Shown piece by piece: positions 136-44,310 of a stretch of 53,235 bases of DNA. This DNA is from Solidesulfovibrio fructosivorans JJ] (GTDB taxonomy: Bacteria; Desulfobacterota; Desulfovibrionia; Desulfovibrionales; Desulfovibrionaceae). A program made the translations under genes and the position numbers. The DNA is taken from assembly GCF_000179555.1 (NCBI RefSeq), contig NZ_AECZ01000028.1, positions 1 to 53,235 of the forward strand, written 5' to 3'. Position 1 is the stretch's first letter. Each line of letters starts with the position of its first letter. The notes beneath the pieces were generated by a model that worked only from the letters and a program-made list of their open reading frames with translations, ran no database searches and was not told the DNA's origin.

Positions 136-234
136 TCTTTCAGGGCTCCGACCCTTCGCAAGCCGGCCACGCCTTCCGCTGGCCAGAGCGAATCGGGGGG
201 ACCGGGGGGCGCGCCCGCCCCCCGGCGGTGAGGT

Positions 235-259
235 CCAGGAGAGGCAGCGCCTCTCCTGG
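235..259 (-). terminator. Hairpin 3' of the 175-aa protein gene
   Basis: CCAGGAGAGGC and GCCTCTCCTGG pair perfectly around AGC. It lies 28 nt past the minus-strand stop codon at 287. The flanks GGTCCAGG (left) and CCTGGCCGCCGGAGG (right) are shared with the hairpins at 956-991 and 12514-12549 although the stem itself differs. No T-run is present, so termination strength is uncertain. Confidence 0.5.
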
Positions 260-814: not shown

Positions 815-955
815 ACGCATGCCCTCCCGGCATCGGTATGCTTTAGGTATGGTGTGCGGTTGGCTGGTCGGCCACGCGCCCTTTGCCCGGGAGCGATCCC
901 GGCATGGCCGCGCGGCATGAGCCTCAACCCCCTATTGAAAGTTGTTGAAGGGGGT

Positions 956-991
956 CCAGGGGGAAACTTTTTTCAAAAAGTTTCCCCCTGG
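956..991 (-). terminator. Rho-independent-type hairpin after rdgC
   Basis: CCAGGGGGAAACTTTT pairs with AAAAGTTTCCCCCTGG around loop TTCA, 30 nt past the rdgC stop on the minus strand. The same sequence recurs at 12514-12549, including both flanks. Confidence 0.75.
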
Positions 992-8291: not shown

Positions 8292-11200
8292 CCCTTCCCG
8301 AGCTGTGCATCCGCCGCCCCGTCGGCACCACGCTTCTTACCATGGCCCTGATCCTGGCCGGGGCCATCGCGTTTCGGCTCCTGCCTGCGGCGGCTTTGCC
8401 CCAGGTGGATTTCCCCGCCATCTCGGTTTCGGCCCAACTGCCCGGGGCCGAGCCCCAGACCATGGCCACCTCGGTCGCCGCGCCGCTGGAACGCCAGTTC
8501 GCCCGTATCGCCGGCCTCAGCGAAATGACCTCCCAAAGCAGCCGGGGATCGACGCGCATCAACCTGATTTTCGACCTCGACCGCGACATCAACGGCGCGG
8601 CCCGCGATGTCCAGTCGGCGATAAACGCCGCCATGGGCTATCTTCCCTCCACGCTGCGCCAGAACCCCACCTACCGGAAGATGAACCCCGCCGACGCGCC
8701 GGTCATGGTCCTGGCGCTCACTTCGGACACGGTGTCGCGGACCAAGATGTACGACGTGGCCTCCACCGTGCTGCAGCAAAAGCTCTCCCAGGTCGACGGC
8801 GTGGGGCAGGTGTTCGTGGGCGGCGGCGCGCTGCCGGCGGTGCGGGTCAACGTCGATCCCGCCGCCCTGGCCGCCAAGGGGCTGAGCCTCGCCGACGTCA
8901 AAAGCATGCTGACCAAGACCACGGTCAACAAGCCCAAGGGCGGCATCGAGGCGGGGGATCGCTCCTACGAGGTGGAGACCAACGACCAACTCCACGAGGC
9001 CTGGCAGTACCAGCCGCTGATCCTGTCCTATAAAAACGGCGCGGCCGTGCGCCTGACCGACGTGGCCACCATCACGCCCTCGGTGGAGGACGTGCGCACG
9101 GCCGGCTTCGTCAATGGCAAGCCGTCGGTCATGGTCATCGTTTTTCGCCAGCCCGGGGCCAACATCATCGAGACGGTGGACAACGTCAAAGCGCTGATCC
9201 CCCAGCTGCGGGCCTCCCTGCCCGGCGATGTGGACATTTCGGTGGAGATGGACCGCAGCCCGCCGATCCGGGCCTCCCTGGCCGAGGTGGAGCGCACCCT
9301 GATCATCTCCTGCCTGCTGGTCATCCTGGTGGTGTTCGTGTTTCTCGGCAGCGCCCGGGCCACGCTGATCCCGGCCGTGGCCACGGTGGCCTCCCTCGTC
9401 GGCACCTTCGCGGTCATGTACCTGCTGGGCTACTCCCTGGACAACCTGTCGCTGATGGCCCTGACCATCGCCACCGGCTTCGTGGTCGACGACGCCATCG
9501 TGGTGGTGGAAAACGTGGCCCGGCACATGGAGCAGGGCATGGCCCCGCGCGCGGCCTCGCTTCTGGGCTCCAAGGAAGTGGCCTTCACCGTGGTCTCCAT
9601 GAGCGTGTCCCTGGTGGCGGTTTTTATCCCGATTCTGCTCATGGGCGGCATGGTGGGCCGGCTTTTCCGCGAATTCGCCATGGTGCTTTCCATCGCCATT
9701 CTCATCTCGCTTTTGCTCTCGCTCACCTCCACCCCGACCCTGTGCGCCGTGCTGCTGCGCCCGGTCGCCAAAAAGGCTTCCGGCCGGCCGTGGCTTACGG
9801 CCCGGGCCTTTGCCTGGCTCCACCGCGGCTACGAGCGCAGCCTCGCTTTCGCCCTGTCCCACCCGAGGCTCATGCTCACGGCCACGGTGGGGGCGCTGGC
9901 CGGCGCGATCTGGCTCTACGTGGCCATCCCCAAGGGCTTTTTCCCGGAACAGGACACCGGCCGGGTCATGGGCTTCATCCAGGCCGCGCCGGACACCTCG
10001 TTCCAGGCCATGGAGAAAAAGCTGCGGACCGTGATCAAGGTCATCGGGGCCAACCCGGACGTTGCCTCGGTGACGGGCTTTACCGGGGGCGGCGGGGGAC
10101 CCGGCGGCGGCGGCACCAACTCGGCCCAGATGTTCATTACGCTTCGCCCCAAAAACAAGCGTCCGCCCCTGGCCGTGACCATGGGGCGGCTGCGCAAGGC
10201 CTTGGCCGCCGTTCCCGGCACGCCGGCCTTTCTCATGCCGGCCCAGGAGCTGCGCATGGGCGGCCGGCCAGGCAAGGCGCTCTACCAGTACACGCTGCTC
10301 TCGGACAGTTATCCCGATCTGGTGGCGGCTTCGCCCAAGGTCGAGGCGGCCATGAAGAAGCTGCCCGGCCTCACCGACGTCAGCGCCGACCAGCAGGACA
10401 ACGGGCTGATGACCTTTGTCGACGTCGACCGGGATACGGCCTCGCGCCTGGGCGTGACGAGCGCGGCCGTGGACGCGGCGCTCTACAGCGCCTTCGGCCA
10501 GAGCCTGGTCGGCGTGTCCTACACCGACCAGAACCAGTACCATGTGGTGCTCGAGGTCTCGCCGCGCATCTGGCAAAGCCCGGAGGGGCTGCGCAAGATC
10601 TACGTGGCCGGTACGGACGGCAAGCAGATTCCCCTGGCGTCGGTGGCCAGGTTCCGCCAGAGCGAGGCGGCGCTTTCGGTCAACCACCAGGGGCAGTTCC
10701 CGGCCGCCACCATCTCCTTCAACCTGGCCCCGGGCGTGGCCCTGTCCCAGGCGGCCCAGGCCATCGAAGCGGCGACCCGGGCGCTGCATCTGCCGTCGTC
10801 GGTGCGCGGCAGCTTCGCCGGCACGGCCGAGGCGTTCAAAAGTTCGCTGTCGACCCAGCCGCTGCTTCTGCTCGCCGCGCTCATCGCGGTCTACATCGTG
10901 CTCGGCATCCTTTACGAAAGCACCATCCACCCCCTGACCATCCTCTCGACCCTGCCCTCGGCCGGACTCGGGGCCGTGGCGGCGCTCATGGCCTTTCGCA
11001 TGGACCTGACCATCATTGCCGTCATCGGCATCATCCTGCTGATCGGCATCGTGAAGAAAAACGGCATCATGCTGGTGGATTTCGCCCTTTCCGCCGAGCG
11101 CGAGCGCGACCTTTCCCCGCGCGACGCCATCTACGAAGCCTGCCTCAAGCGTTTCAGGCCCATCATGATGACCACCATGGCCGCCTTTCTGGGCGCGCTG

Positions 11201-11413
11201 CCCCTGGCGCTTGGCACGGGATCGGGAGCGGAACTGCGCCGGCCGCTCGGCATCGCCATCGCCGGCGGACTGCTCGTCAGCCAGGCCATGACCCTCTATA
11301 CGACGCCTGTGATCTATTTGTACTTGGATAGGTTGCGCTGCTGGGGGAGGGGACCCCTTTTTGCAAAAAGGGGTCCCCTCCCCCAGACCCCCTCCCTCCC
11401 CAAAAACTCTTGA
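8288..11413 (+). CDS. mdtC: RND efflux pump, second inner-membrane subunit (MdtC-type)
   Basis: A 1041-aa RND transporter whose ATG at 8288 overlaps the previous stop (ATGA). It begins [21 protein letters not shown]401/D402 in [14 protein letters not shown] and the lysine in [15 protein letters not shown] are intact, so it should translocate protons. A Gly-rich insertion ([10 protein letters not shown], residues about 600-610) lies in the second-half periplasmic loop. The last 20-odd residues are unusual: after the final helix ([12 protein letters not shown]) the frame reads right through the long hairpin at 11341-11386, giving a tail such as [13 protein letters not shown]. The family normally ends in a short basic tail, so this end is probably repeat-derived. 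Confidence 0.92.
11341..11386 (+). terminator. Long hairpin inside the mdtC 3' end
   Basis: CTGGGGGAGGGGACCCC...TTTTT and its perfect complement form a 22-bp stem with a 2-nt gap. The following tail (ACCCCCTCCC...AAAAACTCTTG) matches the other members of this hairpin family. It lies wholly within the coding frame, ending 27 nt before the stop codon. Confidence 0.7.
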
Positions 11414-12277: not shown

Positions 12278-12513
12278 TTGGTTCCCTCCTGCCGTTACTC
12301 TCCTATCGTCTTTTATGTGGGAAACTTTACGTTATATTTGGAATCATCGTCTCGTTGCCTCGCATCCCCTTATTTTAATGGCGATAGTTTTCGAAAAAAC
12401 AGCCCGCTTTTTCGGGTCCACGCATGCGCGCATAGCGTGAGGGCATATCGCAGAGGCGCTGCCCGCAACACCTGCTCCCCCCGCCGATCCCGTCAACAGT
12501 TTTTGAAGGGGGT

Positions 12514-12549
12514 CCAGGGGGAAACTTTTTTCAAAAAGTTTCCCCCTGG
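12514..12549 (-). terminator. Hairpin overlapping the methyltransferase stop codon
   Basis: CCAGGGGGAAACTTTT and AAAAGTTTCCCCCTGG around TTCA, the same as 956-991 including flanks. The stop codon TGA of the minus-strand gene is read from the TTCA loop (12531-12533). Confidence 0.75.
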
Positions 12550-14075: not shown

Positions 14076-15563
14076 TTACGGGTTGTGCTTAGGGCAATCA
14101 TCATCCTTAGGCAAGCCCGCTCCTTCCGCCTGGGCCGCGGCCAGACGCCCCAGGGTGGTCAGCGCCTCGTCCACGACCGGCGTCCAGACATTGCCGTAGC
14201 TTAGGCGCAAGAAACGGCTGAACTGGTCGCAGCTGGAAAAGATGTTGCCCGGGGCCACGCCGATGCCTTTGGCCTTGGCCTCGTAGAAGAGGGCGATGGA
14301 GTCCACGGCCTCGGGGAGCTGGACCCACAACACCGTGCCGCCGCCGGGATGGGTGACCCGCGTTCCCGGCGGGAAGCTGCGCAGGATACGTTCCTCCATG
14401 ATGCGGGCCTGCCGTTCGAGCACGGCCCGGATCTTGCGCAGGTGGCGCTCGAAGCCGCCCTGGGAAAGGTATTCGGCCACGGCGATCTGGGTGGGCGTGG
14501 CGCAGCAGACGTTGGTGGTGGCCTTTATCTCGAAGGCCTTGGCCGCATAGCGCCCGGGGAGCAGGTAGCCGACACGAAAACCCGGGGCCAGGGTCTTGGA
14601 AAACGACGAGCAGTGAAGCACGTAGCCTTCGGTGTCGGAGGAGGCCAGGCAGCGCGGCCGGCCGCCGTCGAAATACAGGTCGCCGTAGACGTCGTCCTCG
14701 ATGACCGGCACCCCCCGGGCGGTGAGCATGGCCGTCATTTCGGCCTTGGCCGGGTCGGGGATGCGCGCGCCGTCGGGATTGTTGAAATTGGGGGTGAGGA
14801 TCACGACCTTGATGTCGAAGCGGTCCAGCGCCGCGGCCAGGTCGGCCGGGCGCACGCCGCCGTCGGGATGGGAGGGCAGCTCCACGGCCCGCAGGCCGAA
14901 ATTCTCCAGCAACTGGAGGAAGCAGTAATAGGAGGGGGCGGCGATGGCCACGTTGTCGCCCGGCCGGGTGACCGAGCGCAGGGCGATGTACAGCGCCTCC
15001 ATGGCCCCGGAGGTGATCATGATGTCCTCGGGCCGCGCCTCGATGCCGGCCTCGACCAGACGCCAGGCGATCTGGCGGCGAAGTCCCAGATTCCCGAACA
15101 CGCCCTCGTAGCCCACCACCGACTCGCCGCCGGCCGTCGCCACCTTGGCCAGAAGCCGGGACAGCTGGCGCGTGGGCAAAAGCGATTCGTCGGTCTGGGC
15201 CACATTGAGGGGCACCATGTCGCGCCGGCCCATGCCGCCGAGCACCTCCCGGATGAGCGCTCCCCGGTTGATGGCCGTGGGCGGCTTGGCCGGCAGGCGC
15301 GACGGCCGGGGAGCGGGCGGGCGGTCCGGCCGGGAGCGCACGAAGAATCCCGATTTGGGCCGTGCCTCCACCACGCCGCGTCGTTCGAGGGCCATGTAGG
15401 CCTGGTTGACCGTGGACACGCTGACGCCAAGTCGGGTCCCCAGGGCGCGCAGGGACGGAATGCGTTCGCCGGGGAGCAGCTCCCCGGATTCGATGCGCTC
15501 CAGGATATGGCGCTCCACGCTGACGTAGCGGAAGATGCCGTCGTCGGTCTGGGGCAGGGGCAT
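14076..15563 (-). CDS. MocR-family regulator (GntR wHTH fused to aminotransferase fold)
   Basis: A 495-aa protein. Residues 10-78 are a GntR winged helix (IFRYVSVERHILERIESGEL, PSLRALGTRLGVSVSTVNQA). Residues about 115-480 are a class I/II aminotransferase fold, with the substrate-pocket NFNNPDGARIP and PLP lysine K323 in SSFSKTLAPGFRVGY. Known MocR proteins (PdxR, GabR) sense PLP or amino compounds and act mainly as regulators. It is divergent from the DUF2917 gene at 15695, and repeated ATCTGTYATG sites lie between the two starts, so autoregulation and control of the neighbour are likely. Confidence 0.9.
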   Translation of the reverse strand: MPLPQTDDGIFRYVSVERHILERIESGELLPGERIPSLRALGTRLGVSVSTVNQAYMALERRGVVEARPKSGFFVRSRPDRPPAPRPSRLPAKPPTAINRGALIREVLGGMGRRDMVPLNVAQTDESLLPTRQLSRLLAKVATAGGESVVGYEGVFGNLGLRRQIAWRLVEAGIEARPEDIMITSGAMEALYIALRSVTRPGDNVAIAAPSYYCFLQLLENFGLRAVELPSHPDGGVRPADLAAALDRFDIKVVILTPNFNNPDGARIPDPAKAEMTAMLTARGVPVIEDDVYGDLYFDGGRPRCLASSDTEGYVLHCSSFSKTLAPGFRVGYLLPGRYAAKAFEIKATTNVCCATPTQIAVAEYLSQGGFERHLRKIRAVLERQARIMEERILRSFPPGTRVTHPGGGTVLWVQLPEAVDSIALFYEAKAKGIGVAPGNIFSSCDQFSRFLRLSYGNVWTPVVDEALTTLGRLAAAQAEGAGLPKDDDCPKHNP

Positions 15564-15582
15564 GGCGTTTCCTTTTTTTGTG

Positions 15583-15632
15583 ATCTGTTATGCCTATTTT
15601 TTCTTTGAACTGTATCTGTCATGGTAACAGAC
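15583..15632. promoter_or_regulatory. Candidate MocR operator with repeated ATCTGTYATG
   Basis: ATCTGTTATG at 15583-15592 and ATCTGTCATG at 15614-15623 are direct repeats 31 bp apart, three helical turns. An inverted copy, TAACAGA, follows at 15625-15631. MocR regulators such as GabR and PdxR bind direct repeats in divergent promoters. The sites lie between the regulator and the DUF2917 gene. Confidence 0.5.
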
Positions 15633-15694
15633 GTTCTGGTCTAAGGGAAGGGCGCCGGCGGCGGTTCCGCCGGGTCTAACCTGAGGAGGACGCC

Positions 15695-16057
15695 ATGTTC
15701 GCGGATCGCATCAAGGAAGACAGACAGCTTGCGGCGGCCCGACCGGGGCTTTTGGACGCCTGGATTTCCCGCTTTCGGGACAACCGGTTCGTGCGGGTGG
15801 CGGCCGAGGCCGGGGAACGGCTTTTCACGCCGGGGCGGCAGCTCACCGCACGCCTGGGCCAGGGCAAATATCTGAGCCTCTCGGGCACGCGGTTTTGCCG
15901 GGTGGAATGCCGGCGCGGCGCGGTCTGGGTGACGGCGGCGGGCGACGGCCGGGACAGGGTGCTGACCCCAGGGCAGCGGGCGAGCTATTCCCGGGGCGGC
16001 AAGGTGGTGGTTTCCGGGCGGGGCGACGCGTCGGAAGTGCGGGTGTGCTGGGACTGA
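15695..16057 (+). CDS. DUF2917 domain protein
   Basis: A 120-aa protein; GAGGA lies about 8 nt before the ATG (MFADRIKEDRQLAAARPGLL). Residues about 50-115 match the DUF2917 pattern: a beta-rich domain with RRGAVWVTAAGDGRDRVLTPG and ASYSRGGKVVVSG, possibly cupin-like. The first 45 residues are basic and helical. There is no signal peptide. The function of DUF2917 is not known to me. Position opposite the MocR gene suggests it is the regulated target. Confidence 0.8.
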   Translation: MFADRIKEDRQLAAARPGLLDAWISRFRDNRFVRVAAEAGERLFTPGRQLTARLGQGKYLSLSGTRFCRVECRRGAVWVTAAGDGRDRVLTPGQRASYSRGGKVVVSGRGDASEVRVCWD

Positions 16058-16153
16058 CGCCTTTCGTCGGCGAGGCGCAACGCGGTTGCCGCCGGATCGT
16101 GTTGCCGGGCTTGGCGCAACCTGCTATCGCCAGGACAGCAAGGAGCCTGCCGC

Positions 16154-17488
16154 ATGGAAGAAAGCTGTCCGATCGCCCCCATCGACACGTCCATTCCGGT
16201 TCTCGGGCCGGCCAAGATTCCTTCGCCGCTGCCTTATTGCCGCTTCGCCGACGACAGCCGCGCCAGGATGGAGCTCGACGCCAGCGAATTCGGCTCGGGC
16301 TCGGGGCCGTGCTTCGCCGATTTCGAGCTGGCCGGGCCGCGCAGCCGCATTTATTATGATTCGTCCAAGGTCAAGGCGGCCATCGTCACCTGCGGCGGAC
16401 TGTGCCCGGGCTTAAACGACGTCATCCGGGCCATCGTCATGGAGGCCCACCACAACTACCACGTGGCCGGCGTGCTCGGCATCCGTTTCGGCCTGCAAGG
16501 CTTCATCGAATCCTACGGCCACGAGCCCGTGGAACTGACTTCGGCCAACGTGGCCGACATCCACCAGTTCGGCGGCACCACCCTGGGCTCGAGCCGAGGC
16601 CCCCAGCGTCCCGAGGATATCGCCGACGCCCTGGAGCGCCTCAACATCGCCATGCTTTTCGTCATCGGCGGCGACGGGTCCATGAAGGCGGCCCGGCGCA
16701 TCCAGGAGGAAATCAGCCGGCGCGGTTCGAAAATCAGCATCATCGGCGTGCCCAAGACCATCGACAACGACATCAACCTCGTCACCCAGTCCTTCGGCTT
16801 CGACACGGCCGTGGAGAAGGCCGCCAAGGCCATCCGTTGCGCCCATACCGAGGCCATCGGAGCCCTAAACGGCGTGGGCCTGGTCAAGCTCATGGGCCGG
16901 GAATCCGGGTTTATCGCCGCCCAGGCGACGCTCGCGCTCAAGGAAGTCAACTACGTGCTGGTGCCGGAATACCCCTTTGCCCTGGAGGGGGAGCATGGGC
17001 TCTTGCCGTCCCTGGAGAGTCGTCTGGCCCGGCGCGGTCACGCCGTGATCGTCGTGGCCGAGGGCGCCGGGCAGGACCTGCTCCCGGACACGGGGCTGCG
17101 TGACGCCTCGGGCAACCCGGTGCTCGGCGACATCGCCGAATTCCTTTCCGGCAGGATCGAGTCGTATTTCCGCGACCGCGACATCCCCATGACGCTCAAA
17201 TTCATCGACCCGAGCTATATCGTCCGGTCGGTCCCGGCCAATGCCAACGACCGGGTCTACTGCGGCTTTCTGGGGCAAAACGCGGTGCACGCGGCCATGG
17301 CCGGCAAGACGGGGATGGTGGTGTCCAAGCTCTACGGCCGCTACGTCCACCTGCCCCTCGACCTCGTGACGCTGCGGCGCAAGAAGCTCAACATCGCCTC
17401 GGACTACTGGCGCTCGGTGATCGAATCCACAGGCCAGTACACGGTGACGCCCTTCATCGACGACCCCGCCATTTTCTGCGCCAGGTAA
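16154..17488 (+). CDS. pfkA: ATP-dependent 6-phosphofructokinase
   Basis: A 444-aa PFK that phosphorylates fructose 6-phosphate in glycolysis; AAGGAG lies 8 nt before the ATG. It is longer than E. coli PfkA (320 aa) because of an N-terminal extension of about 75 residues, as in plant/trypanosome/spirochaete-type ATP-PFKs. The donor-site motif is GGDGS with G175 (ATP type), while the next signature is PKTIDND with K201 (the residue seen in pyrophosphate enzymes). This pairing occurs in the group of ATP-PFKs that evolved from the PPi lineage, so ATP is the likely donor. FGFDTAVEKA and MGRESGFIA bind the sugar phosphate. It is separated by 96 nt from the DUF2917 gene. Confidence 0.9.
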   Translation: MEESCPIAPIDTSIPVLGPAKIPSPLPYCRFADDSRARMELDASEFGSGSGPCFADFELAGPRSRIYYDSSKVKAAIVTCGGLCPGLNDVIRAIVMEAHHNYHVAGVLGIRFGLQGFIESYGHEPVELTSANVADIHQFGGTTLGSSRGPQRPEDIADALERLNIAMLFVIGGDGSMKAARRIQEEISRRGSKISIIGVPKTIDNDINLVTQSFGFDTAVEKAAKAIRCAHTEAIGALNGVGLVKLMGRESGFIAAQATLALKEVNYVLVPEYPFALEGEHGLLPSLESRLARRGHAVIVVAEGAGQDLLPDTGLRDASGNPVLGDIAEFLSGRIESYFRDRDIPMTLKFIDPSYIVRSVPANANDRVYCGFLGQNAVHAAMAGKTGMVVSKLYGRYVHLPLDLVTLRRKKLNIASDYWRSVIESTGQYTVTPFIDDPAIFCAR

Positions 17489-17511
17489 TTGGGGGGAAGA
17501 GAGAAGAGTGT

Positions 17512-17553
17512 GCGAGAGGGGAACCCTTTTTGAAAAAAGGGTTCCCCTCTCGC
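17512..17553 (+). terminator. Hairpin module B after pfk
   Basis: GCGAGAGGGGAACCCTTTTT pairs with the matching complement ending CCCCTCTCGC. The tail GCGCTCTCCCCTCCCAAAAAC is the one that follows other module-B hairpins. Confidence 0.75.
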
Positions 17554-17580
17554 GCTCTCCCCTCCCAAAAACTTTCAACG

Positions 17581-17613
17581 GTTACAGACGCTGTGACGGT
17601 AATTGTCTGTAAC
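17581..17613. repeat. Central inverted repeat GTTACAGAC/GTCTGTAAC
   Basis: Nine-bp perfect arms at 17581-17589 and 17605-17613 with a 15-nt loop, located between two terminator hairpins at the pfk/aroK convergent junction. The same stem core and loop length occur at 44208-44246. Confidence 0.65.
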
Positions 17614-17639
17614 TATTAAAAGTCTTTTGGAGGGGGGGT

Positions 17640-17677
17640 CCGGGGGGACCCTTTTCTTCAGAAAAGGGTCCCCCCGG
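17640..17677 (-). terminator. Hairpin module A after aroK
   Basis: CCGGGGGGACCCTTTTC and GAAAAGGGTCCCCCCGG around loop TTCA, 28 nt past the minus-strand stop of aroK. On the minus strand it is followed by CCAAAAGACTTTTAATAG, the tail shared by module A. Confidence 0.75.
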
Positions 17678-17704
17678 GAAGTCTCTTTCCTCTCCCCCTA
17701 TCCC

Positions 17705-18238
17705 CTATTCCCTCTCCCAGGCCGTTAGGGCGCGCAGGGCGAATTCGAGGAGCTCGTCCACGGGGCGTTCGGGCAGGCTGGCGTGGGCGCAGGCCAGGTA
17801 GAGCGGTTCGCGTTCGGCCAGGGTGGCGGTGATTTCCTCGCGCAGCCCGAGCTGCGTCAATTTGGGGCGTTGTTCCTCGTTTAAGTCGGCCATGAGCCGT
17901 TCGGCCAGGCGCTCCGGATCTGCCTGGAGGTAGAAGACCAGCCCCTTGCCCAGCAGGTCGCGGTTTTCCGGCAGCAGGACGACGCCGCCGCCCGTGGCCA
18001 CCACCTGTCCCGTTTGCCCGGCGGTTTCGGCCAGGATGGCGGCTTCGGCCTTGCGGAAGGCGTCCCAGCCGTCGCGGCCGACCATGTCGGCGATGGTTTC
18101 CCCGTATTTTTCGCAAAATGCCGCGTCGAGGTCGGTAAACGGCCGTTCGAGGCGTTCGGCCAGGCGTTTGCCCAGGGTGGTTTTGCCCGAGGCCCGGGGG
18201 CCGATGAGGTAGATGTTGCGGTCGTCGGCAAGGGGCAT
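17705..18238 (-). CDS. aroK: Shikimate kinase
   Basis: A 177-aa enzyme phosphorylating shikimate in the chorismate pathway. The ATG at 18238 has GGAGG 6 nt upstream. The P-loop is GPRASGKTT (residues 13-21), FTDLDAAF supplies the Mg/shikimate aspartates (D36, D38), FRKAE has the shikimate-binding arginine (R62), and ATGGGVVLLP is the GGG motif at 83-85. Length is normal for the family. No other aro gene adjoins it. It ends in a convergent junction with pfk and is divergent from the ECF sigma gene, so it appears to be monocistronic. Confidence 0.9.
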   Translation of the reverse strand: MPLADDRNIYLIGPRASGKTTLGKRLAERLERPFTDLDAAFCEKYGETIADMVGRDGWDAFRKAEAAILAETAGQTGQVVATGGGVVLLPENRDLLGKGLVFYLQADPERLAERLMADLNEEQRPKLTQLGLREEITATLAEREPLYLACAHASLPERPVDELLEFALRALTAWERE

Positions 18239-18463
18239 TGGCGGCCTCCGTGAAGGATGCTGGCGGGAAAAATGGTCCGCCGCGCCCGGGAAATAGCGTT
18301 CCGGGGCCTTTCTGTCGAGCCGGGGTGTAACCGAAGGCCTCTTTGCCGCGCCAAAGACGGCAGTGCGGGCTTCTGTCCGCGCCATCGAGGAGGGACTTGC
18401 GGCATGGACGGGGTGACGGGTGCGGCCTCGGCCCACAGCCGGTCGTGCTGACGGCTGGCGGGC

Positions 18464-19030
18464 ATGGGACAATTTCTGACGAAACTCGAGGGGATCGACG
18501 ACGGCTCCCTGGCCGCCGCCGCCGCCCAAGGGGATCAGCGGGCGTTCGCGGTCCTGGTGTCCCGGCACCAGCCCGGCGTCCTGCATCTCGTCTCGCGCTT
18601 TTGCGACGACCCCGACGGCATGGAGGATCTTGCCCAGGAGATCTTCGTCAAAGCCTACCTGAATCTGGGAACGCTGCGCAACGGAGCGGTTTTTCGCGGC
18701 TGGCTGCACCGTATCGCAGCCAACACCTGCATCGACTGGTTGCGGCGGCGCAAATCCGACGTGGATATGGTGGCCGGGATCGAGGAATCGCTGCCCGACG
18801 AGCGCGACCAGGCCAGGATCGAGGCCCGCGACGCAAGGCGTCGGCTCAAGGCGGCCATGGCCGTGCTTGGTCCCAAGGACCGGCTGCTGGTGGCGCTTTT
18901 GGGACTCGAGGGAAAAAGCGTGGAAGAAGTGGCGGGCATGACCGGCATGACCCAGGTCAACGTCAAGGTTCGGGCCTTTCGCGCCCGGCGCAAGCTCAAG
19001 GCCTACCTGGAAGAGAAGGAACATGATTGA
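18464..19030 (+). CDS. ECF-type RNA polymerase sigma factor
   Basis: A 188-aa sigma-70 family protein with only regions 2 and 4. Region 2 covers RAFAVLVSRHQPGVLHLVSR, MEDLAQEIFVKAYLNL and FRGWLHRIAANTCIDWLRRR. Region 4 is LLVALLGLEGKSVEEVAGMTGM with a helix-turn-helix and ARRKLKAYL. The ribosome site is weak, so the start is less sure. ECF factors usually have an anti-sigma gene immediately downstream; here the convergent permease ends 23 nt away, so no full-length partner exists. Signal and regulon are unknown. Confidence 0.88.
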   Translation: MGQFLTKLEGIDDGSLAAAAAQGDQRAFAVLVSRHQPGVLHLVSRFCDDPDGMEDLAQEIFVKAYLNLGTLRNGAVFRGWLHRIAANTCIDWLRRRKSDVDMVAGIEESLPDERDQARIEARDARRRLKAAMAVLGPKDRLLVALLGLEGKSVEEVAGMTGMTQVNVKVRAFRARRKLKAYLEEKEHD

Positions 19031-19053
19031 GCGGCCGGGGCGCGGCCGACCGA

Positions 19054-21603
19054 TCATTCGTTGCGCAGATACGGCCAGGCCTTGCCCGCCAGGGCGCGCC
19101 ACAGGCCGGCCATGCCGAGGGTCAGCGTGACTCCCGCCGCCGTGGCGACCGTCAGGAGCGCCGGCACGGCGAAGAAGCGAAACGGCAGGTCCATGAAAAA
19201 GGCCACAAAAGCCCAGGCCAGTCCGCCGCCGATCGCCAGGGCCATGCACCCGGCCAACGTCCCGAGCAGGGCGTTTTCCCCCAGAAAGACCGCCAGAATA
19301 TCCCGCCGCTTCGCGCCGCAGGCCTTGTAGATGGCCGCTTCGTAGGTTTTGCGCCGCATGCCCACGGCCATGGTCTGCAACAGCACCAGCATGCCGATGC
19401 ATAAGGTGGTTCCGGCCGCGACGGTCACGGCGGCCGCGACCTTGTCCGCCACGCCCAGCACCGCGTTTAAGGCGTCGCCGGTGCCGATGGCGGTCACGTT
19501 GGCGAAGCGCCCGGTCACGGCATTGAAAAGCGCCTCGGCCGGATCGCCGGAAGCCTTGTTGTCCACATAGGCTGTGGCCAGCCAGGTCATGGGAATGCCG
19601 TCGAGCGCCCCGGGCGAGAAGACGAAGACATAGTTGATGCCGAGCGACAGCCAGTTGATGCGTCGCAGGCTCGCCACCGTGGCCGTGATCTCGCGGCCGA
19701 GCGCGTTGACGGTCACCGTGTCGCCCAGGGAAAGCCCCAGCCCGGCGGCGATTTTTTCATCCACCGACACGAGCGGCGGCCCGGCATAGTCCTTTGGCCA
19801 CCAGCTCCCGGCCACGATGCGCGTGCCCTCGGGCATGGTCGCGGCATAGGTGAGTCCGCGATCGCCCTGCACCGCCCAGCGGGCGTCCGGGTCCACGCGG
19901 GCCTCGGCCACGGGCGCGCCGCGCAGTTCGGCGATGCGTCCCCGGGCCATGGGCGAGGTCTCGACGCGGCTGACGCCCGGCACGGACCGGGCTGTTTGCA
20001 AAAACGACGGCAGCTGGTCCGGCTGGATGTCCACGAAGAAAAAGGCCGGGGCCGTGCGGGGAATGTCTTCGGTGAAGGCGGCGCGAAAATTGGCTTCCAC
20101 CAGAATCATGGCGCACAGGGTGGAAAGACCGAGTCCGAGCGCCGCCAGCACCCGGCCCACCTGGTTGTCCGGCCGGGATATGGCGCGAAGGGCCAGTCCC
20201 CGGATTCCGGGGCGGCGCGGGATGCGTCCGGCCAGAAAGACCGCCAGTCCGGCGAAAAGCCAGAACAGGGCCGTTGCCGCCACGGCCGCCACGACGAACC
20301 CGAGCCCCAGCCGCCGGTCCGGGGTGGACACGACGGCCAGGGCGAAAAGCCCGGCCAGGCACAAAAGGCCCGGCAGACGGGCGGTGAGTCCGAGGCGCGG
20401 GCGGTCCGGGGCGTCGTAGCCGCGAAAAAGGAGCAGGGGCGGCACGCGGCCGGCGGCGGCCAGCTGGGGCAGGGAAAAGGCCAGGGCGGTCAGCGCTCCG
20501 CAGCCTCCGGCCAGGGCCAGCGCGCCGGGATAGGGGCCGGGCGGAAAGCGCACGGGCACGAGCGCGCCGAGCAGCGGGCCGAGCGCGACCGGAACCAGGG
20601 CCCCGACAAGCAGGCCCACGGCGATGCCGCAGGCGGCTTGCCCCGCGATCACGAGCAGATAGGTGGTCACGACCAGACGGCGGGGCGCGCCCAGGCATTT
20701 CATGGCCGCGATGGAGGCCGTGCGGCCGTCGAGATAGCCGGAGACGGCCTGGGAGATGCCGATGCCGCCCAAAAGCAGCGCGGCCAGGCCGACCAGGGCG
20801 GTGACGGCGGCCAGCCGGTCCATGAAGCGCGTGAGCCCGGGCTGGGCCGCGGCGGCGTCGCGCAGCCGCCAACCGGCCATGGGGAATTCCCGGCGCAGGG
20901 CGGCCATGGCGCTTTTGGCGGATTCCCCGGCCGGGAGACGGAGGCGGTAAAAGTGGCGGGTGAGGCTTCCCGGGCCGTCCAGGCCGGCGGCATGCAGGCT
21001 GGACGCGGCCACGAGCAGGGGCGGCCCCAGGGCGGTCAGGCCGCCGGCGGCGTCGGGCGTGCGTTCGAGCACGGCCCGCACGGCATAGGCCGCATCGGCC
21101 ACAAGGATCGTGTCCCCGACTTTGAGGCGAAGGCGTGAGAGCAGTTCCGGCGCGACGACCGCGCCGGGCCGCCCGTCGCGTACGGCCAAGGCCGAGGCCA
21201 GGGGCATGGGCGGGCGCAATTCCACGCTCCCATAGAGCGGATACGCCCCGTCCACGGCCCGCAGGGTGGCGAGCGTCCGGGCGGCCGGGCCGGCCGCCGT
21301 CTCGCGCCGGGCCATGATCTGCATGGACACGAGGTGGGAGACGCGTCCCAGCCGGGAAAGCGCGGCCCGCTCTTCGGCGGTCGCCGGCCGTTGGGACAGG
21401 GCCGCTTCCAGGTCGCCGCCCAGAAGCGACGCCGCGTCCTCGGCCAGCCCGGCCTGGTAGGAGGCGGCCAGGCTTTTGACCCCGGCCACGGCGGCGACAC
21501 CCAGGGCCAGACAGGCCAGAAAAATGCCGAATCCCCGGAAACCGGCCCGCAATTCCCGTCCCGCCAGACGAAAGGCCAGCCCTATCTCTTTGGGAAAACG
21601 CAT
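19054..21603 (-). CDS. FtsX-family ABC transporter permease (YbbP-like)
   Basis: An 849-aa membrane protein. It starts with a cytoplasmic stretch and TM1 (FGIFLACLALGVAAVAGVKS), followed by a periplasmic MacB-like domain (SLLGGDLEAALSQRPATAEE). Two FtsX cores follow: one near residues 260-400, and a C-terminal one with MAVGMRRKTYEAAIYKACGA, the hallmark loop of this fold. Length and duplicated architecture match YbbP. YbbP-type permeases normally pair with a YbbA ATPase thought to move hydrophobic compounds or lipoproteins; no ATPase gene lies beside it here. It is divergent from the chemoreceptor at 21758. Confidence 0.87.
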   Translation of the reverse strand: MRFPKEIGLAFRLAGRELRAGFRGFGIFLACLALGVAAVAGVKSLAASYQAGLAEDAASLLGGDLEAALSQRPATAEERAALSRLGRVSHLVSMQIMARRETAAGPAARTLATLRAVDGAYPLYGSVELRPPMPLASALAVRDGRPGAVVAPELLSRLRLKVGDTILVADAAYAVRAVLERTPDAAGGLTALGPPLLVAASSLHAAGLDGPGSLTRHFYRLRLPAGESAKSAMAALRREFPMAGWRLRDAAAAQPGLTRFMDRLAAVTALVGLAALLLGGIGISQAVSGYLDGRTASIAAMKCLGAPRRLVVTTYLLVIAGQAACGIAVGLLVGALVPVALGPLLGALVPVRFPPGPYPGALALAGGCGALTALAFSLPQLAAAGRVPPLLLFRGYDAPDRPRLGLTARLPGLLCLAGLFALAVVSTPDRRLGLGFVVAAVAATALFWLFAGLAVFLAGRIPRRPGIRGLALRAISRPDNQVGRVLAALGLGLSTLCAMILVEANFRAAFTEDIPRTAPAFFFVDIQPDQLPSFLQTARSVPGVSRVETSPMARGRIAELRGAPVAEARVDPDARWAVQGDRGLTYAATMPEGTRIVAGSWWPKDYAGPPLVSVDEKIAAGLGLSLGDTVTVNALGREITATVASLRRINWLSLGINYVFVFSPGALDGIPMTWLATAYVDNKASGDPAEALFNAVTGRFANVTAIGTGDALNAVLGVADKVAAAVTVAAGTTLCIGMLVLLQTMAVGMRRKTYEAAIYKACGAKRRDILAVFLGENALLGTLAGCMALAIGGGLAWAFVAFFMDLPFRFFAVPALLTVATAAGVTLTLGMAGLWRALAGKAWPYLRNE

Positions 21604-21757
21604 ATCTCAGTCCTATTTGGAACAGTACGGCAAATTGCGGAGGTGGTCCACAGCTTCGAAAAAGATGCGATTGGCATTGCAACAAGCAACGAAATAAGAC
21701 AAATACTGAAGATGCGCGGTTCACAGCGCCCGCGCCCGTTGAAGGGAGGCGCGGTTC

Positions 21758-23830
21758 ATGTCCGTCGGGGATTCGGGAAACGCAAGCATCGGGGGAATGA
21801 TCGTGAAAAACATGAAACTTGGCGTCAAGATCACCATCGGCTTCGGACTGTTGATCCTCATTGCCTGCGTGCTCGGCGGCATGGCCGTGGTCAACATGAA
21901 CAGTGTCGAAAAACAGTCCACGCGGCTGGCCCAGGAATATGTCCCGGAAGTCGCCATCGCCAACCAGCTCGAACGGGCCGCCGCGCAGGTGATGTTGGAT
22001 ATCCGTGCGTACGGATATAGTGAGGATAAAAAGGATCTCGACGCCGGCCTGCGCAGTTTCGCCGAATTGAAGCGCGCGCTGGCCGAGGCCAAAGCGCATT
22101 CGGAGAAGTACCCGGACCTGACCAAGCTGCGCGAGGACGTGGGCAAGGCCCAGGTCAAGGTGGCGGAATACGAAAAACTCATTACGGACACGTCGTCGCG
22201 CCTGGAGGCGTTGGCCGGGGTGCGGCGCAACCTGGATGCGGCGGCCGGCGAGTTCGTGCGCAATACCGGAGCCTATCAGGAGAGCCAGGCCAAGGCGCTG
22301 CTTGACGAGATCGCCCGGGGAATGCCCGCCGATGCCCTGCGCGACCGCGCCAACAAGGTGGCCGGCATCGACGGCATTCTTACCCAGGTCACGGCCATCC
22401 GGGTCAACAACTACCGGGGCCAGCTCTACCGGGAGCCGCGCTTCATCGACGACGCCATCAAAGGATTTACGCCCCTCGATCAGGCCGTCGAAACGCTTCG
22501 GGCCAAGACCCGCGCAGACGCCAACCTGCGGCAACTGGCGGCCATCAAGGACGCTTCCGCGAAATACCGGCAGGCGCTCAGCGATTTTCTGGATATCTAC
22601 AAGGTGTTGCAGGAGCTGGCCGTCAAGCGCCTCGAAGCCGGCAACGCCGTGCAGGAAGCGGCCGTGACAACGGCCAAGGCGGCCCTCGACGCTACCCAGC
22701 ATATCGCCAACGAGGCTGTCGCCAGCCTGTCCACCGCCTCCACGATCATGCTCGGCGGATTGGCCGTGGCGCTTGTGCTCGGCATTCTCATCGCCATTTT
22801 CCTGACCAAGGCCATCACCGGCCCGGTGGTCAAGGGCGTGGATTTCGCCAAGGCCATGGCCCAGGGGGACTTCACCCGCCTGCTCGACATCGACCAGAAG
22901 GACGAAATCGGCATTCTGGCCGCCTCGCTCAACGAGATGGTGAGCAAATTGCGCGAAGTGGTGGCCGAGGTGCAGTCGGCTTCGGAAAATGTGGCCTCCG
23001 GGTCGGAGGAGCTTTCCGCCTCGGCCCAGAGCATGTCCCAGGGCGCCACGGAACAGGCGGCCAGCGTCGAGGAGATCTCCTCGTCCATGGAACAGATGAG
23101 TTCCAACATCAAGCAGAACGCCGAAAACGCCCAGCAGACCCAGTCCATCGCGGTCAAGGCGGCCCAGGACGCCCGTGAGGGCGGCGAGGCCGTTATCTCG
23201 GCCGTGGCGGCCATGAAAAACATTGCCGAAAAGATCTCCATCATCGAGGAGATCGCCCGCCAGACCAACCTGCTGGCCTTAAACGCCGCCATCGAGGCCG
23301 CAAGGGCCGGCGAACACGGCAAGGGCTTCGCCGTGGTGGCGGCCGAGGTGAGAAAACTCGCCGAACGCAGCGGCTCGGCCGCGGCCGAAATCTCCGAGCT
23401 GTCCTCTTCCAGCGTCCAGGTGGCCGAACAGGCCGGCTCCATGCTGACCAAGATGGTGCCCGACATCCAGCGCACGGCCGACCTTGTGCAGGAAATCGCC
23501 GCCGCCAGCCAGGAACAGAACTCCGGGGCCGACCAGATCAACAAGGCCATCCAGCAGCTCGACCAAGTGGTGCAGCAAAACGCCTCGGCCTCCGAGGAGA
23601 TGGCCTCCACCTCCGAAGAGCTTTCGAGCCAGGCCGAGCAGCTCCAAAGCACCATGGCCTTCTTCCGGGTGGACGGCACGGGACGCCGGCAGGTCCGGAC
23701 GGTCAAGGCGCTGCCCGCCGCCCACCGATCGGCCGCCAAGAAGCCGGCGCCCGCAGCCGGCGCCAAGAAGGCCTCGGGCGGCGTCGGCATCGACCTCGAC
23801 GACAAGGACGACGATTTCGAGCGTTTTTAG
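21758..23830 (+). CDS. Methyl-accepting chemotaxis protein with large periplasmic domain
   Basis: A 690-aa transmembrane chemoreceptor. The ATG at 21758 has GGGAGG 8 nt upstream; a GTG at 21803 (after GGGGGA) or ATG at 21812 could also start it and would place TM1 nearer the N-terminus. TM1 is about residues 25-46 and TM2 about 328-351. Between them is a roughly 280-residue all-helical periplasmic domain, the size of HBM (helical bimodular) sensors. HAMP follows, then the signalling hairpin around residue 500 ([20 protein letters not shown]). The acidic C-terminus ends DDDFERF, a possible methylation-enzyme tether. The ligand is not predictable. Confidence 0.92.
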
Positions 23831-23840
23831 GGAAGAAGCT

Positions 23841-23872
23841 GGGGGAAACCTTTCTTCAGAAAGGTTTCCCCC
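23841..23872 (+). terminator. Hairpin module A after chemoreceptor gene
   Basis: GGGGGAAACCTTTC and GAAAGGTTTCCCCC around TTCA, 10 nt past the stop, followed by the CAAAGACTTTTCATAGTAAC tail. Confidence 0.8.
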
Positions 23873-23993
23873 AAACCCCTTTTCAAAGACTTTTCATAGT
23901 AACCTGCCGCTATTTCATTTTTTTTATTGTGGTTGGCGGTTTAATTGAGTACCGCGCCGCAAGAATGAAGGAATTTAGGAAGGGGAGAGCGCA

Positions 23994-24025
23994 GAGGGGA
24001 GAACCCTTTTTAAAGGGTTTCCCCT
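23994..24025. terminator. Hairpin module B upstream of aminotransferase gene
   Basis: GAGGGGAGAACCCTTT pairs imperfectly with AAAGGGTTTCCCCTTT. The preceding TTTAGGAAGGGGAGAGCGC is shared with the 28.4- and 44.3-kb copies. It lies only 40 nt before a plus-strand start, so it may act on transcripts in both directions. Confidence 0.6.
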
Positions 24026-24064
24026 TTCGCATGCTCTTTCCTTTTTTTGTTTCAAGGAGGCGTC

Positions 24065-25189
24065 ATGGATCAGGCCCGGTTGCGTGAGGAGTTTCCGGTT
24101 GTGGCCGAAGCGGTCTATTTCAACCATGCGGCCGTCTCGCCTCTGCCCGGGCGCGCCTGCGCCGCCGGACAGGCCGTGTACGAGGACCGGTGGCGGCGGG
24201 GCTCGGCCGATTATTTCCGTTGGCAGGCGGCTGTGGCCGCGGCCAGGGAAGGGGCGGCGCGGCTCCTTCGGACCACGCCCGACCGGGTGGCCTTTACCGG
24301 TAACACCTCCCACGGGTTGTCGCTCGTGGCCGGCGGCCTCGACTGGAAGCCGGGGGACAAGGTGGCCGTGACCTGGCCGGATTTTCCCACCGTGCGCTTT
24401 CCCTTCGACAATCTGGCCGATCACGGCGTGGGCGTCGTGGAACTGCCCAAGCACGACGGCCGCCTGGACATGGACGCGGTGCGAAAGCTGATCCCGGGGT
24501 GTAAACTGGTGGTGGCGGCGACGGTGGACTGGACCACGGGCGTGCGCCTGCCGGCGGCGGAACTTGGAGCGCTTTGCCGGGAGGCGGGGGCGCTTTATTG
24601 TCTGGACGCCATTCAGAGCCTGGGGGCGCTGCCCACGGACGTGGCCGAGCTGGGCGTGGATTTTCTGGCCGCCGGCTGCCACAAATGGCAGCTCGGACCC
24701 ATGGGGCTCGGCATCTTCTACGTGGCGCCGGGGGCCGATGCCGCCCTCGGTACGGTCATGGCCGGCTGGCGCTCCATGCGCGACGCCGAGGAACTCGGCA
24801 TGACCTTTCGCCTGAAGGCCGGGGCCGGCCGTTTCGAGGCCGGGACCCAGGACATCGCCGGTATCGCCGCCTACGGCGCGTCGCTTGCCTTGTTCGAGGA
24901 GCTCGGCCGGGAAGAGGTCGCCCGCCGCATTTTCGCCATCGCCGACATCCTGGCCGCCGGGCTCGCCGAAAGGGGGCTTTGCGTCCCCTCGCCCCTGACG
25001 CCCGGGGAGCGCTCGGGCATTCTCGTGTTCGAGCATCCCGACGCCCCGGGCCTGTACAAGGCGCTGATGGGCGCCAATGTTGCCGTGTCGCTTCGAAACG
25101 GGCGCATCCGCCTGTCGCCGCACTGCTACAACGACGCAACGGACGCCGCGCGTTTTTTCGCGCATCTCGACGCGTTCGACGGACGCTGA
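24065..25189 (+). CDS. Class V aminotransferase family protein
   Basis: A 374-aa PLP enzyme of the cysteine desulfurase/isopenicillin epimerase group. The ATG at 24065 has AAGGAGG 4 nt upstream. It opens with FNHAAVSPLPGRA. The PLP-phosphate region is FTGNTSHGLSLVAG, the cofactor aspartate is D181 (YCLDAIQSLGALP), and the Schiff-base lysine is K207 in AAGCHKWQLGPMG. There is no obvious catalytic Cys loop like that of NifS/IscS, so a selenocysteine-lyase-like or C-S/C-N lyase role is more likely than Fe-S assembly. The substrate is open. It is flanked by unrelated genes and ends at a bidirectional terminator. Confidence 0.85.
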   Translation: MDQARLREEFPVVAEAVYFNHAAVSPLPGRACAAGQAVYEDRWRRGSADYFRWQAAVAAAREGAARLLRTTPDRVAFTGNTSHGLSLVAGGLDWKPGDKVAVTWPDFPTVRFPFDNLADHGVGVVELPKHDGRLDMDAVRKLIPGCKLVVAATVDWTTGVRLPAAELGALCREAGALYCLDAIQSLGALPTDVAELGVDFLAAGCHKWQLGPMGLGIFYVAPGADAALGTVMAGWRSMRDAEELGMTFRLKAGAGRFEAGTQDIAGIAAYGASLALFEELGREEVARRIFAIADILAAGLAERGLCVPSPLTPGERSGILVFEHPDAPGLYKALMGANVAVSLRNGRIRLSPHCYNDATDAARFFAHLDAFDGR

Positions 25190-25248
25190 TCGGCTTGTCG
25201 GCAGGGCCTTCGACGCCGCCGGCGAGGTGGGGGGCAGGGCTCTTTTCG

Positions 25249-25284
25249 TCCCGGGGGAAACGGACGCGTCCGCCTCCCCCGGGA
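25249..25284. terminator. Bidirectional hairpin between convergent genes
   Basis: TCCCGGGGG...CGGACG pairs with CGTCCG...CCCCCGGGA with a small internal mismatch (AAA opposite CCT). Confidence 0.65.
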
Positions 25285-25293
25285 TGCGCGATT

Positions 25294-28269: not shown

Positions 28270-28417
28270 ACCGCTTCCTCCCTTGGCGCGTCTTGTCCCA
28301 GGGGTGCGGAAAAAAAGCAATCCATCACGCGGGGTTGTAAAATCGTGTGCCTTGTGTCTCCCCGGTGTGCCTCTTCCCAACATGGATTTCCGGTAAAAAA
28401 TTTCGGAAGGGGAGAGC

Positions 28418-28457
28418 GCGAGAGGGGAAACCCTTTTTAAAGGGTTTCCCCTCTCGC
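28418..28457 (-). terminator. Hairpin module B after aspartate decarboxylase gene
   Basis: An 18-bp perfect stem, GCGAGAGGGGAAACCCTT with AAGGGTTTCCCCTCTCGC, around a 4-nt loop, 20 nt past the minus-strand stop. Confidence 0.8.
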
Positions 28458-28477
28458 ATTTCTCTTCTTTTCATTTC

Positions 28478-31637: not shown

Positions 31638-31663
31638 GGCGATACTCCTGTCAGGACGAGCGA

Positions 31664-31777: not shown

Positions 31778-31815
31778 CTGGGGGAGGCCCTTTCTTCAGA
31801 AAGGGCCTCCCCCAG
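31778..31815 (-). terminator. Hairpin module A after superoxide reductase gene
   Basis: CTGGGGGAGGCCCTTTC and GAAAGGGCCTCCCCCAG around TTCA, 11 nt past the stop. On the minus strand it is followed by CAAAGATTTTTAATAGTAAC, the module-A tail. Confidence 0.8.
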
Positions 31816-31825
31816 GCTGCTAGGC

Positions 31826-36702: not shown

Positions 36703-36748
36703 CCGGGGGAGGGAACCCCTTTTTGAAAAAAGGGGTTCCCTCCCCCGG
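36703..36748 (+). terminator. Hairpin between adaptor and pump genes
   Basis: CCGGGGGAGGGAACCCC...TTTTT pairs with its complement ending CCCTCCCCCGG, 4 nt past the adaptor stop. The tail CCCCAAAAACTTTTCAAGG matches the family. Being inside a probable operon, it could reduce rather than stop transcription into the pump gene. Confidence 0.65.
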
Positions 36749-36912
36749 ACCCCCACCCTCCCCAAAAACTTTTCAAGGGGAATGCGTCGACGGCCGATTG
36801 GTGGAGGATGGAAGGGAAGATGCGGCGATCGCTTGCAAAAGTATGGGGCGTATTGCCTGGGCCGGGGAGAGGGGGAGTGGCAGGAACGCAAGCCTGAGGG
36901 GGGCGAACGGTC

Positions 36913-44151: not shown

Positions 44152-44187
44152 CCGGGGGAAACCTTTCTGTAGAAAGGTTTCCCCCGG
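44152..44187 (+). terminator. Hairpin module A after the DUF169 gene
   Basis: CCGGGGGAAACCTTTCT and AGAAAGGTTTCCCCCGG form a perfect 17-bp stem, followed by the tail CCCCCTTCCAAAGACTTTTA. Confidence 0.8.
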
Positions 44188-44207
44188 GCCCCCTTCCAAA
44201 GACTTTT

Positions 44208-44246
44208 AACGGTTACAGGATGTTATGTGTACGCCCTGTAACCGTT
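44208..44246. repeat. Central inverted repeat AACGGTTACAGG/CCTGTAACCGTT
   Basis: Perfect 12-bp arms at 44208-44219 and 44235-44246 with a 15-nt loop, between module A and module B. It is the counterpart of 17581-17613. Confidence 0.7.
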
Positions 44247-44269
44247 AGGAAGTTTAGGAAGGGGAGAGC

Positions 44270-44310
44270 GCGAGAGGGGAGAACCCTTTTTAAAGGGTTT
44301 CCCCTCTCGC
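44270..44310 (-). terminator. Hairpin module B after the 73-aa gene
   Basis: GCGAGAGGGGAGAACCC... pairs with ...GGGTTTCCCCTCTCGC, 20 nt past the minus-strand stop. On the minus strand GCGCTCTCCCCTTCC follows. Confidence 0.75.

Follow-up and report, generated by a model that had tools for sequence, protein, structure and literature searches.

Many gene ends of Solidesulfovibrio fructosivorans JJ carry dispersed hairpin modules, each with purines in the 5' arm, pyrimidines in the 3' arm and, behind them, a tail that, as read from the sequence, repeats the pyrimidine arm in mirror order. This succession of purine arm, pyrimidine arm and mirror tail is the layout of a pyrimidine-motif intrastrand triplex, in which the third strand runs parallel to the purine arm and places C on G-C and T on A-T pairs, and the modules satisfy the rules for intrastrand triplexes, with the purine, pyrimidine and third strands all present on one strand. 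On balance, these modules are probably sense-strand terminators or 3' caps in which the third strand would zip into the hairpin just behind RNA polymerase; a sense-strand RNA triplex appears to be the best explanation because of the position, orientation and covariation of the modules taken together.

In module B, the purine arm GAGAGGGG and the pyrimidine arm CCCCTCTC are followed by the third strand CTCTCCCC, the complete order being GCGAGAGGGG...CCCCTCTCGC, 1 nt and CTCTCCCC, such that the final 8 letters are the pyrimidine arm mirrored; on the opposite strand, the 19-mer of this module, GGGGAGAGCGCGAGAGGGG, is identical when read backwards. Module A combines the purine arm GGGGGAAA, the pyrimidine arm TTTCCCCC and the third strand CCCCCTTT in the order CCGGGGGAAA...TTTCCCCCGG, 1 nt, CCCCCTT(T/C). 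The window, that is, the whole stretch of 53,235 nt that was analysed (contig NZ_AECZ01000028.1), contains about a dozen strong gene-end hairpins, namely all hairpins in Table 1 other than the degenerate module B at 23972..24032; genes were called with our own script, and the Pfam check of these calls is confined to the window.

Table 1. Hairpin modules, third strands and associated features in the 53,235-nt window
Feature	Position	Strand	Remarks
Module B hairpin	17512..17553	+	23 nt past stop of PFK-domain gene (16154-17488 +)
B third strand CTCTCCCC	17555..17562	+	8/8 triplex match to arm GAGAGGGG
A-rich then T-rich stretch AAAAACTTTC	17567..17576	+	behind B third strand
Central inverted repeat GTTACAG-N19-CTGTAAC of A+B composite	17581..17613	.	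exact dyad
Module A hairpin	17640..17677	-	27 nt past stop of shikimate-kinase gene (17705-19402 -)
A third strand	17631..17637	-	7/7
Module A hairpin	23840..23873	+	9 nt past MCP gene stop
A third strand	23875..23882	+	7/8
Degenerate module B facing A at 23840	23972..24032	-	third strand GGGGAGAG on - at 23982-23989
Module B hairpin	28418..28457	-	20 nt past stop of Aminotran_1_2 gene (28478-30073 -)
B third strand CTCTCCCC	28409..28416	-	8/8
Module A-like hairpin	31778..31815	-	10 nt past desulfoferrodoxin gene stop
Weak third strand of 31778 hairpin	31770-31777	-	6/8, nearly all C
Module A hairpin	44152..44187	+	14 nt past DUF169 gene stop
A third strand CCCCCTTC	44189..44196	+	7/8
Central inverted repeat GTTACAG-N17-CTGTAAC	44212..44242	.	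exact dyad
Module B hairpin	44270..44310	-	19 nt past called - gene end at 44330; ORF without Pfam match
B third strand CTCTCCCC	44261..44268	-	8/8
Family C element	11341..11395	+	hairpin 11341-11386, third strand 11388-11395 (8/8)
Family C element	36703..36757	+	hairpin 36703-36748, third strand 36750-36757 (7/8; A for T)
Family D element	947..991	-	hairpin 956-991, third strand 947-954 (7/8)
Family D element	12505..12549	-	hairpin 12514-12549, third strand 12505-12512 (7/8)
Tandem of two short elements	195..259	-	hairpins 235-259 and 202-225
Tandem element 1	235-259	-	third strand 227-233 (6/7)
Tandem element 2	202-225	-	third strand 195-200 (6/6, all C, order uninformative)

The mirror tail is found on the sense side in 13 of the 16 purine-arm hairpins in the window, with matches of 8/8 in four, 7/7 in one, 7/8 in five, and 6/8, 6/7 and 6/6 in one each, compared with 1/6 to 6/8 on the opposite side of the same 13 hairpins. 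It is absent from the hairpins at 11480, 15469 and 25249, two of which are located 18 and 9 nt from a stop codon. The degenerate module B, which the scan for purine-arm hairpins in the window missed, precedes a plus-strand gene (24065-25189), and no minus-strand gene ends there. No Rfam family matches the window at the gathering score, and a consensus scanner applied to 15000-34000 lists two of these hairpins, each on the strand opposite to its gene. The original prediction of directional terminator modules is supported by the position and orientation of the elements at gene ends, including the four module A hairpins (17640, 23840, 31778 and 44152), which follow a stop codon in the direction of the gene at 27, 9, 10 and 14 nt, respectively. 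The CAAARACTTTT-like tail that it described for module A also recurs (8 occurrences in the window at one mismatch or less vs 0.63 expected), as does the module B core (3 occurrences at three mismatches or less vs 0.00 expected), and A and B are opposed, as stated, between the pfk and aroK genes and behind the DUF169 gene. The TTCA loop considered usual for module A is present on the sense strand at 23840, with TGAA at 17640 and 31778 and TGTA at 44152, and the 15-nt loop thought to be shared by the two central repeats proved to be two spacers of 19 and 17 nt that differ in sequence. The positions, tails and facing pairs of this prediction stand and the shared loop does not, whereas the mirror relation was overlooked.

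Several additional features of these elements deserve mention. An A often replaces the expected T opposite the first A of the purine arm (CCCCCACCC for GGGGGAGGG), a substitution that is seen at 36750-36757 in the window, on contigs C2 and C8, in the sister species and in D. piger, and for which the standard triplex rules give no explanation. A constant GCCTCCGGCGGCC-like leader right before the hairpin is common to family D and the short tandem element (956-991, 12514-12549 and 235-259 in the window, and family D elsewhere in the genome). The open reading frame of an RND pump (ACR_tran, 8288-11413 +) crosses the family C hairpin at 11341-11386 and stops within its tail, about 28 codons beyond the Pfam match; either the loss of a closer stop codon or a partly coding terminator may account for this. 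ACR_tran matches are found in two open reading frames, 8288-11413 and 36913-40023, and a third long one, 5193-8291, shares repeats (D1, D2 and D5; 72-76% DNA identity) with the former.

A preference for mirror over direct order is also seen in the genome beyond the window. We scanned 843,296 bp of the same genome, with contigs C2, C8 and C13 picked for the central dyad and C1 picked without a repeat match, and found that exact asymmetric third strands occur in mirror vs direct order 62 vs 7 times at 8 nt, 90 vs 20 at 7 nt and 116 vs 25 at 6 nt. Among 104 sense hairpins located within 60 nt of a stop and chosen by the duplex only, 31 have a full mirror and 4 a full direct tail, and the mirror is the better match in 64, the worse in 9 and tied in 31. 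When purine-5'-arm hairpins are chosen by the duplex in both orientations, a mirror tail is found in 54 and a direct one in 3 of the 271 informative hairpins of this genome, and in 36 and 3, respectively, of the 156 of the sister species. Searches with module patterns give 52 mirror vs 0 direct for module A in the whole genome, and for module B, 177 vs 0 in this genome and 199 vs 1 in the sister species. A 50-kb control stretch of E. coli is uninformative, as it contains just one such hairpin, which is counted on each strand.

Because family copies inflate any count, one hairpin was taken per distinct arm in the covariation tests. In gene-sense orientation, 26 arms from 105 hairpins of this genome match their own tails at 0.713, compared with 0.594 (sd 0.028) for permuted and 0.574 for reversed tails; with the sister species included (30 arms, 159 hairpins), the values are 0.703, 0.578 (sd 0.026) and 0.566. 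None of 1000 permutations is as high as the own tails in either data set, and tails in reversed order fit no better than shuffled ones. Contig C1 alone provides a weak test (6 arms, 32 of 1000 permutations as good), and the signal is weaker in a fixed-register test in which both hairpin orientations are mixed (0.727 vs 0.612 permuted, sd 0.052, maximum 0.761). Two arm tests that include loci fetched by mirror patterns, and are partly circular for that reason, give 262.9 vs 225.5 (sd 6.4; 49 arms) and 0.684 vs 0.566 (sd 0.024; 34 arms). Joint changes in arm and tail, each at single places, include GGGGGAGAGGG with CCCCCTCTCCC, GGGAGGGG with CCCTCCCC, GAAGGGG with CTTCCCC and GAGAGGGA with CTCTCCCT. 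Compensatory changes within loci were also sought between the sister species, and mostly whole-module replacement was found; some elements, such as the one at 31778, match the third strand poorly. Polymerases copy antiparallel, so that a mirror copy has no templated origin, and selection is therefore its natural cause.

The elements are linked to gene ends. Among 90 exact elements, 74 lie behind a same-strand gene, 15 between two opposite-strand genes and 1 inside a gene, and none is found in a divergent gap; in a set of 114, 74 elements are located between -25 and 40 nt from a same-strand stop. Of the gaps of at least 60 bp, 34 of the 69 between convergent genes and 42 of the 240 between codirectional genes contain an element, as do 0 of the 88 between divergent genes, which leaves half of the convergent and most of the codirectional gaps without one.

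The exact module B pattern, with the above 177 copies in this genome and 199 in a sister species, is absent from all 12 other genomes of the same genus; samples from seven of these 12 species yield mirror vs direct counts of 0 vs 2 for third strands of 7 nt and 8 vs 6 for those of 6 nt, and no duplex-chosen purine-arm hairpin in the same-genus samples has a full tail in either order (0 vs 0). The module A pattern has no match in 147 further genomes of the phylum. At orthologous gene ends, another variant or none is often present. At seven PFK loci, those lying on one of the two strands, we observe the composite in two, a hairpin with a T run in two, a different mirror-tailed tandem in one and no recognised element in two.

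The same rule is followed by a different sequence in Acetobacteraceae. The B 19-mer, which already contains the mirror, is present in at least 119 stretches, with Clostridia, Rhodobacteraceae, Acetobacteraceae and others among the matches listed, whereas a viral collection yields the B core in just 3 stretches. In 24 genomes that were chosen for holding this 19-mer, so that the counts show the rule and not its frequency, the GGGGGAG-type pattern occurs in mirror vs direct order 377 vs 22 times, with 11 of the 24 named genomes having no match to one pattern. Five Acetobacteraceae contribute 340 vs 8 (41/0, 174/7, 47/0, 9/1 and 69/0), followed by two Clostridia MAGs with 16 vs 5, three Rhodobacteraceae with 10 vs 0 and an archaeal MAG with 8 vs 0; the exceptions are D. 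piger (2 vs 5) and a Ruminococcus (0 vs 3), in which many of the direct matches, judged by eye, appear to be mirror tails in another register, with an arm end CCCCCTC followed by CTCCCCC. Hairpins chosen by the duplex show mirror vs direct counts of 20 vs 0 in Acetobacteraceae, 7 vs 0 in Rhodobacteraceae, 3 vs 0 in Clostridia and 1 vs 0 each in the archaeal MAG and D. piger, which are largely circular because most of the loci were fetched by mirror patterns; with the mirror-fetched hairpins removed, 4 vs 0 of 49, 0 vs 0 of 6, 1 vs 0 of 15, 0 vs 0 of 4 and 0 vs 0 of 10 remain in the respective lineages. In stretches of Acetobacteraceae DNA mostly picked around pattern matches, 14 of 23 elements lie behind a same-strand gene, 7 between opposite-strand genes, 2 inside called genes and none in divergent gaps, and a T run directly behind the third strand is present in several tails. 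A number of the 174 GGGGGAG-type copies in N. eburnea appear by eye as facing pairs about 60 nt apart with unlike loops.

The modules resemble ordinary intrinsic or bidirectional terminators in having a strong hairpin a few nucleotides past the stop codon, a T-rich stretch downstream and facing pairs between convergent genes. The stable sense-strand hairpin shortly past the stop codon that is typical of intrinsic terminators is present in the modules, but the T/U-rich tract straight after the stem is not, its place being taken by the third strand, which is inserted between the stem and the T stretch. A linker of 1 nt separates the stem from the third strand in 74 of 90 elements (3 nt should the two lowest base pairs of the stem open), and across these 90 elements the tail consists of the third strand at positions 2-9, a C-rich to mixed segment at 10-13, an A-rich segment at 14-18 and a T-rich segment at 19-23. 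The distance from the stem to the first TTT is 15-19 nt in 55 of the 90, and in 20 no TTT is present in the 45 nt that follow the stem. It is conceivable, if unlikely, that a hairpin and a displaced A/T-rich stretch suffice for termination and that the tail is conserved through the copying of a few sequences. Such ordinary terminators would be compatible with the position and orientation of the elements, and copying would be compatible with the many copies of the exact module B pattern in two species and its absence from 12 others, and with the replacement of variants at orthologous gene ends, but it leaves unexplained that each different family has a mirror tail of its own and that the same rule holds for another sequence in Acetobacteraceae; furthermore, a T-rich stretch lies directly behind the stem in only 11 of 110 strong gene-end hairpins.

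It is improbable that the triplex forms at the DNA level, as H-DNA or in a single strand, and blocks polymerase or forks, with the transcript not being the folded molecule. The pyrimidine arm and the tail do constitute a mirror repeat in duplex DNA, and Holder et al. (PMC4666352) describe intrastrand triplex motifs as widespread among bacterial genomes and associate them with instability in E. coli. DNA, however, is indifferent to the side of the third strand relative to transcription, whereas among 112 purine-arm hairpins located at most 60 nt from a stop, a full third strand is present on the 3' side only in 43, on the other side only in 1 and on neither in 68. When both strands are scanned, the order with the third strand first is absent at 8 nt (0 vs 62 for the order found here) and scarce at shorter lengths (5 cases at 7 nt and 14 at 6 nt, compared with 90 and 116, respectively). 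From this bias and this scarcity it follows that the third strand is the last part to be transcribed and that the pyrimidine motif lies on the sense RNA; according to PMC4666352, this motif can form in RNA, unlike the purine motif.

Modules A and B are parts of one asymmetric unit. Among 115 sampled elements, there are 29 facing pairs and 5 tandem pairs, and no pair points outwards. All 24 pairs that contain B are A+B pairs, in which the partner is A in 15 and A-like, judging by its stem and tail, in 9; the remaining 5 facing pairs hold no B, AA pairs are not found, and the absence of BB pairs has a chance probability of P = 1.6e-4. The spacing between the hairpins is 80-87 nt in 21 of the 24 pairs. 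The exact GTTACAG...CTGTAAC dyad occurs at 8 places in the genome, of which the 7 complete ones all join A to B and the eighth is interrupted by a contig end, and in 58 other genomes of the family it has one match each in five, with different spacers. Accordingly, the head-to-head arrangement around a shared inverted repeat that had been proposed for the window holds as a fixed A+B unit, the centre of which is only loosely conserved. A long perfect palindrome is a deletion hazard, and we infer that the unlike A and B halves avoid forming one.

This fixed unit, found in every B-containing pair, and the lineage-specific expansion are features of mobile families similar to REP or MITE, in which the location at gene ends would be incidental; both the orientation, which is tied to transcription, and the distribution of the candidate mobiliser render this quite improbable. 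A Y1_Tnp (RAYT-type) domain, expected in high-copy genomes for REP/BIME elements with RAYT, occurs once in this genome and is present in two of three other species searched, with no occurrence in the sister species that holds 199 copies of B. The suggestion of a mobile or gene-converted family is thus supported only as lineage-specific expansion and replacement, with no mobiliser found, and the conservation in excess of what a terminator needs, from which it had been drawn, is better accounted for by the third strand. Slightly more doubtful still is the loading of Rho on the C-rich, G-poor tail as a rut-like site behind the hairpin: a rho gene is present and the composition is suitable, but Rho needs composition and not mirror order, and reversed third strands fit no better than permuted ones. 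The least probable alternative is that the tail forms Watson-Crick pairs with the purine-rich leader between the stop codon and the hairpin, yielding a longer interrupted stem, as partially predicted by RNAfold in 3 of 4 folded window transcripts, those that include the leader, since across 115 elements the tail hardly covaries with this leader (5.52 for own and 5.44 for swapped leaders, sd 0.06, with Watson-Crick pairs alone, and 6.03 vs 5.97, sd 0.05, when G-U pairs are allowed).

Among characterized elements, the PIT/BoxC (TM_ECO) family resembles the modules in having three tracts per strand with the third one mirrored, a short second loop and many dispersed copies. The order of the tracts is different, namely pyrimidine, purine and purine third strand in TM_ECO as opposed to purine, pyrimidine and third strand on the sense RNA in the modules, and a scan of both strands detects the TM_ECO order in 0 cases at 8 nt and 5 at 7 nt. 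The available text of PMC4666352 reports that TM_ECO does not tend to lie at a set distance from genes and is located more frequently upstream of ORFs, and, citing an earlier study, that these E. coli PIT elements, which belong to another class than the modules, lack terminator activity; the modules, in contrast, are located just past stop codons and are followed by an A/T-rich stretch. Class III, with the tracts in the order purine, pyrimidine, third strand, accounts for 6% of the 988,588 motifs catalogued there, although the label class III is also applied in two places of that source to the order third strand, pyrimidine, purine. Because the ITxF search employed in PMC4666352 permitted loops of 1-6 nt, modules A and B, with an extra stem inside the first loop, should escape it. 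REP/BIME elements are likewise dispersed intergenic palindromic families with asymmetric paired units, and differ from the modules, which have a mirror-repeat tail, a sense-strand bias and apparently no linked RAYT. Finally, MALAT1-type 3' ends of eukaryotic and viral RNAs form a U.A-U-rich triple helix with an A-rich tail; the modules would similarly place a pyrimidine-motif RNA triplex at the transcript 3' end, but one that is rich in C+.G-C and has the third strand directly behind the hairpin.

Termination or 3' capping is the likeliest function of the element, and from the computed mirror covariation, position, orientation and A+B pairing we infer that an RNA triplex might form and drive termination or protection. 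The hairpin with its purine-rich 5' arm would emerge first behind the polymerase, and the third strand would be the next RNA to leave the exit channel, pairing parallel to the purine arm by Hoogsteen rules, with G taking C and A taking T/U, and zipping from the foot of the hairpin into the major groove. Meanwhile, the polymerase would be positioned on a weak hybrid rich in A/T, which is AAAAACTTTT in this genome and a T run in Acetobacteraceae. The polymerase holds a hybrid of 9-10 bp and an exit channel of about 5 nt, so that the third strand would be just out of the polymerase once the RNA 3' end lies within the T-rich stretch. Pulling or locking by the third strand would then end transcription, cap the 3' end against nucleases, or both. 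At convergent genes, A facing B would provide each gene with its own terminator and avoid a long perfect palindrome. The C+.G-C triples require protonated C, which weighs against this fold. Greater stability of pyrimidine-motif triplexes in acid is reported by Holder et al. (PMC4666352).

More tentatively, and with somewhat less than even confidence, we suggest that these elements represent a distinct type of terminator in which a nascent RNA triple helix, rather than the hairpin alone, would drive release and/or cap the 3' end, which would occur with different sequences in this genus and Acetobacteraceae at least, and probably also in some Clostridia and Rhodobacteraceae, and which would employ unlike, palindrome-avoiding pairs at convergent genes. 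No triplex terminator was found in the open-licence literature, and bacterial intrastrand triplex motifs are catalogued in the available text of PMC4666352 with no gene-end role. One class of intrastrand triplexes now has a clear place, strand and direction at gene ends, and its three strands covary. If the proposal is true, bacterial transcripts would be terminated or capped in an unfamiliar manner, and triplex-assisted termination would explain gene ends that are likely to be scored poorly by finders based on a hairpin plus a T tract.
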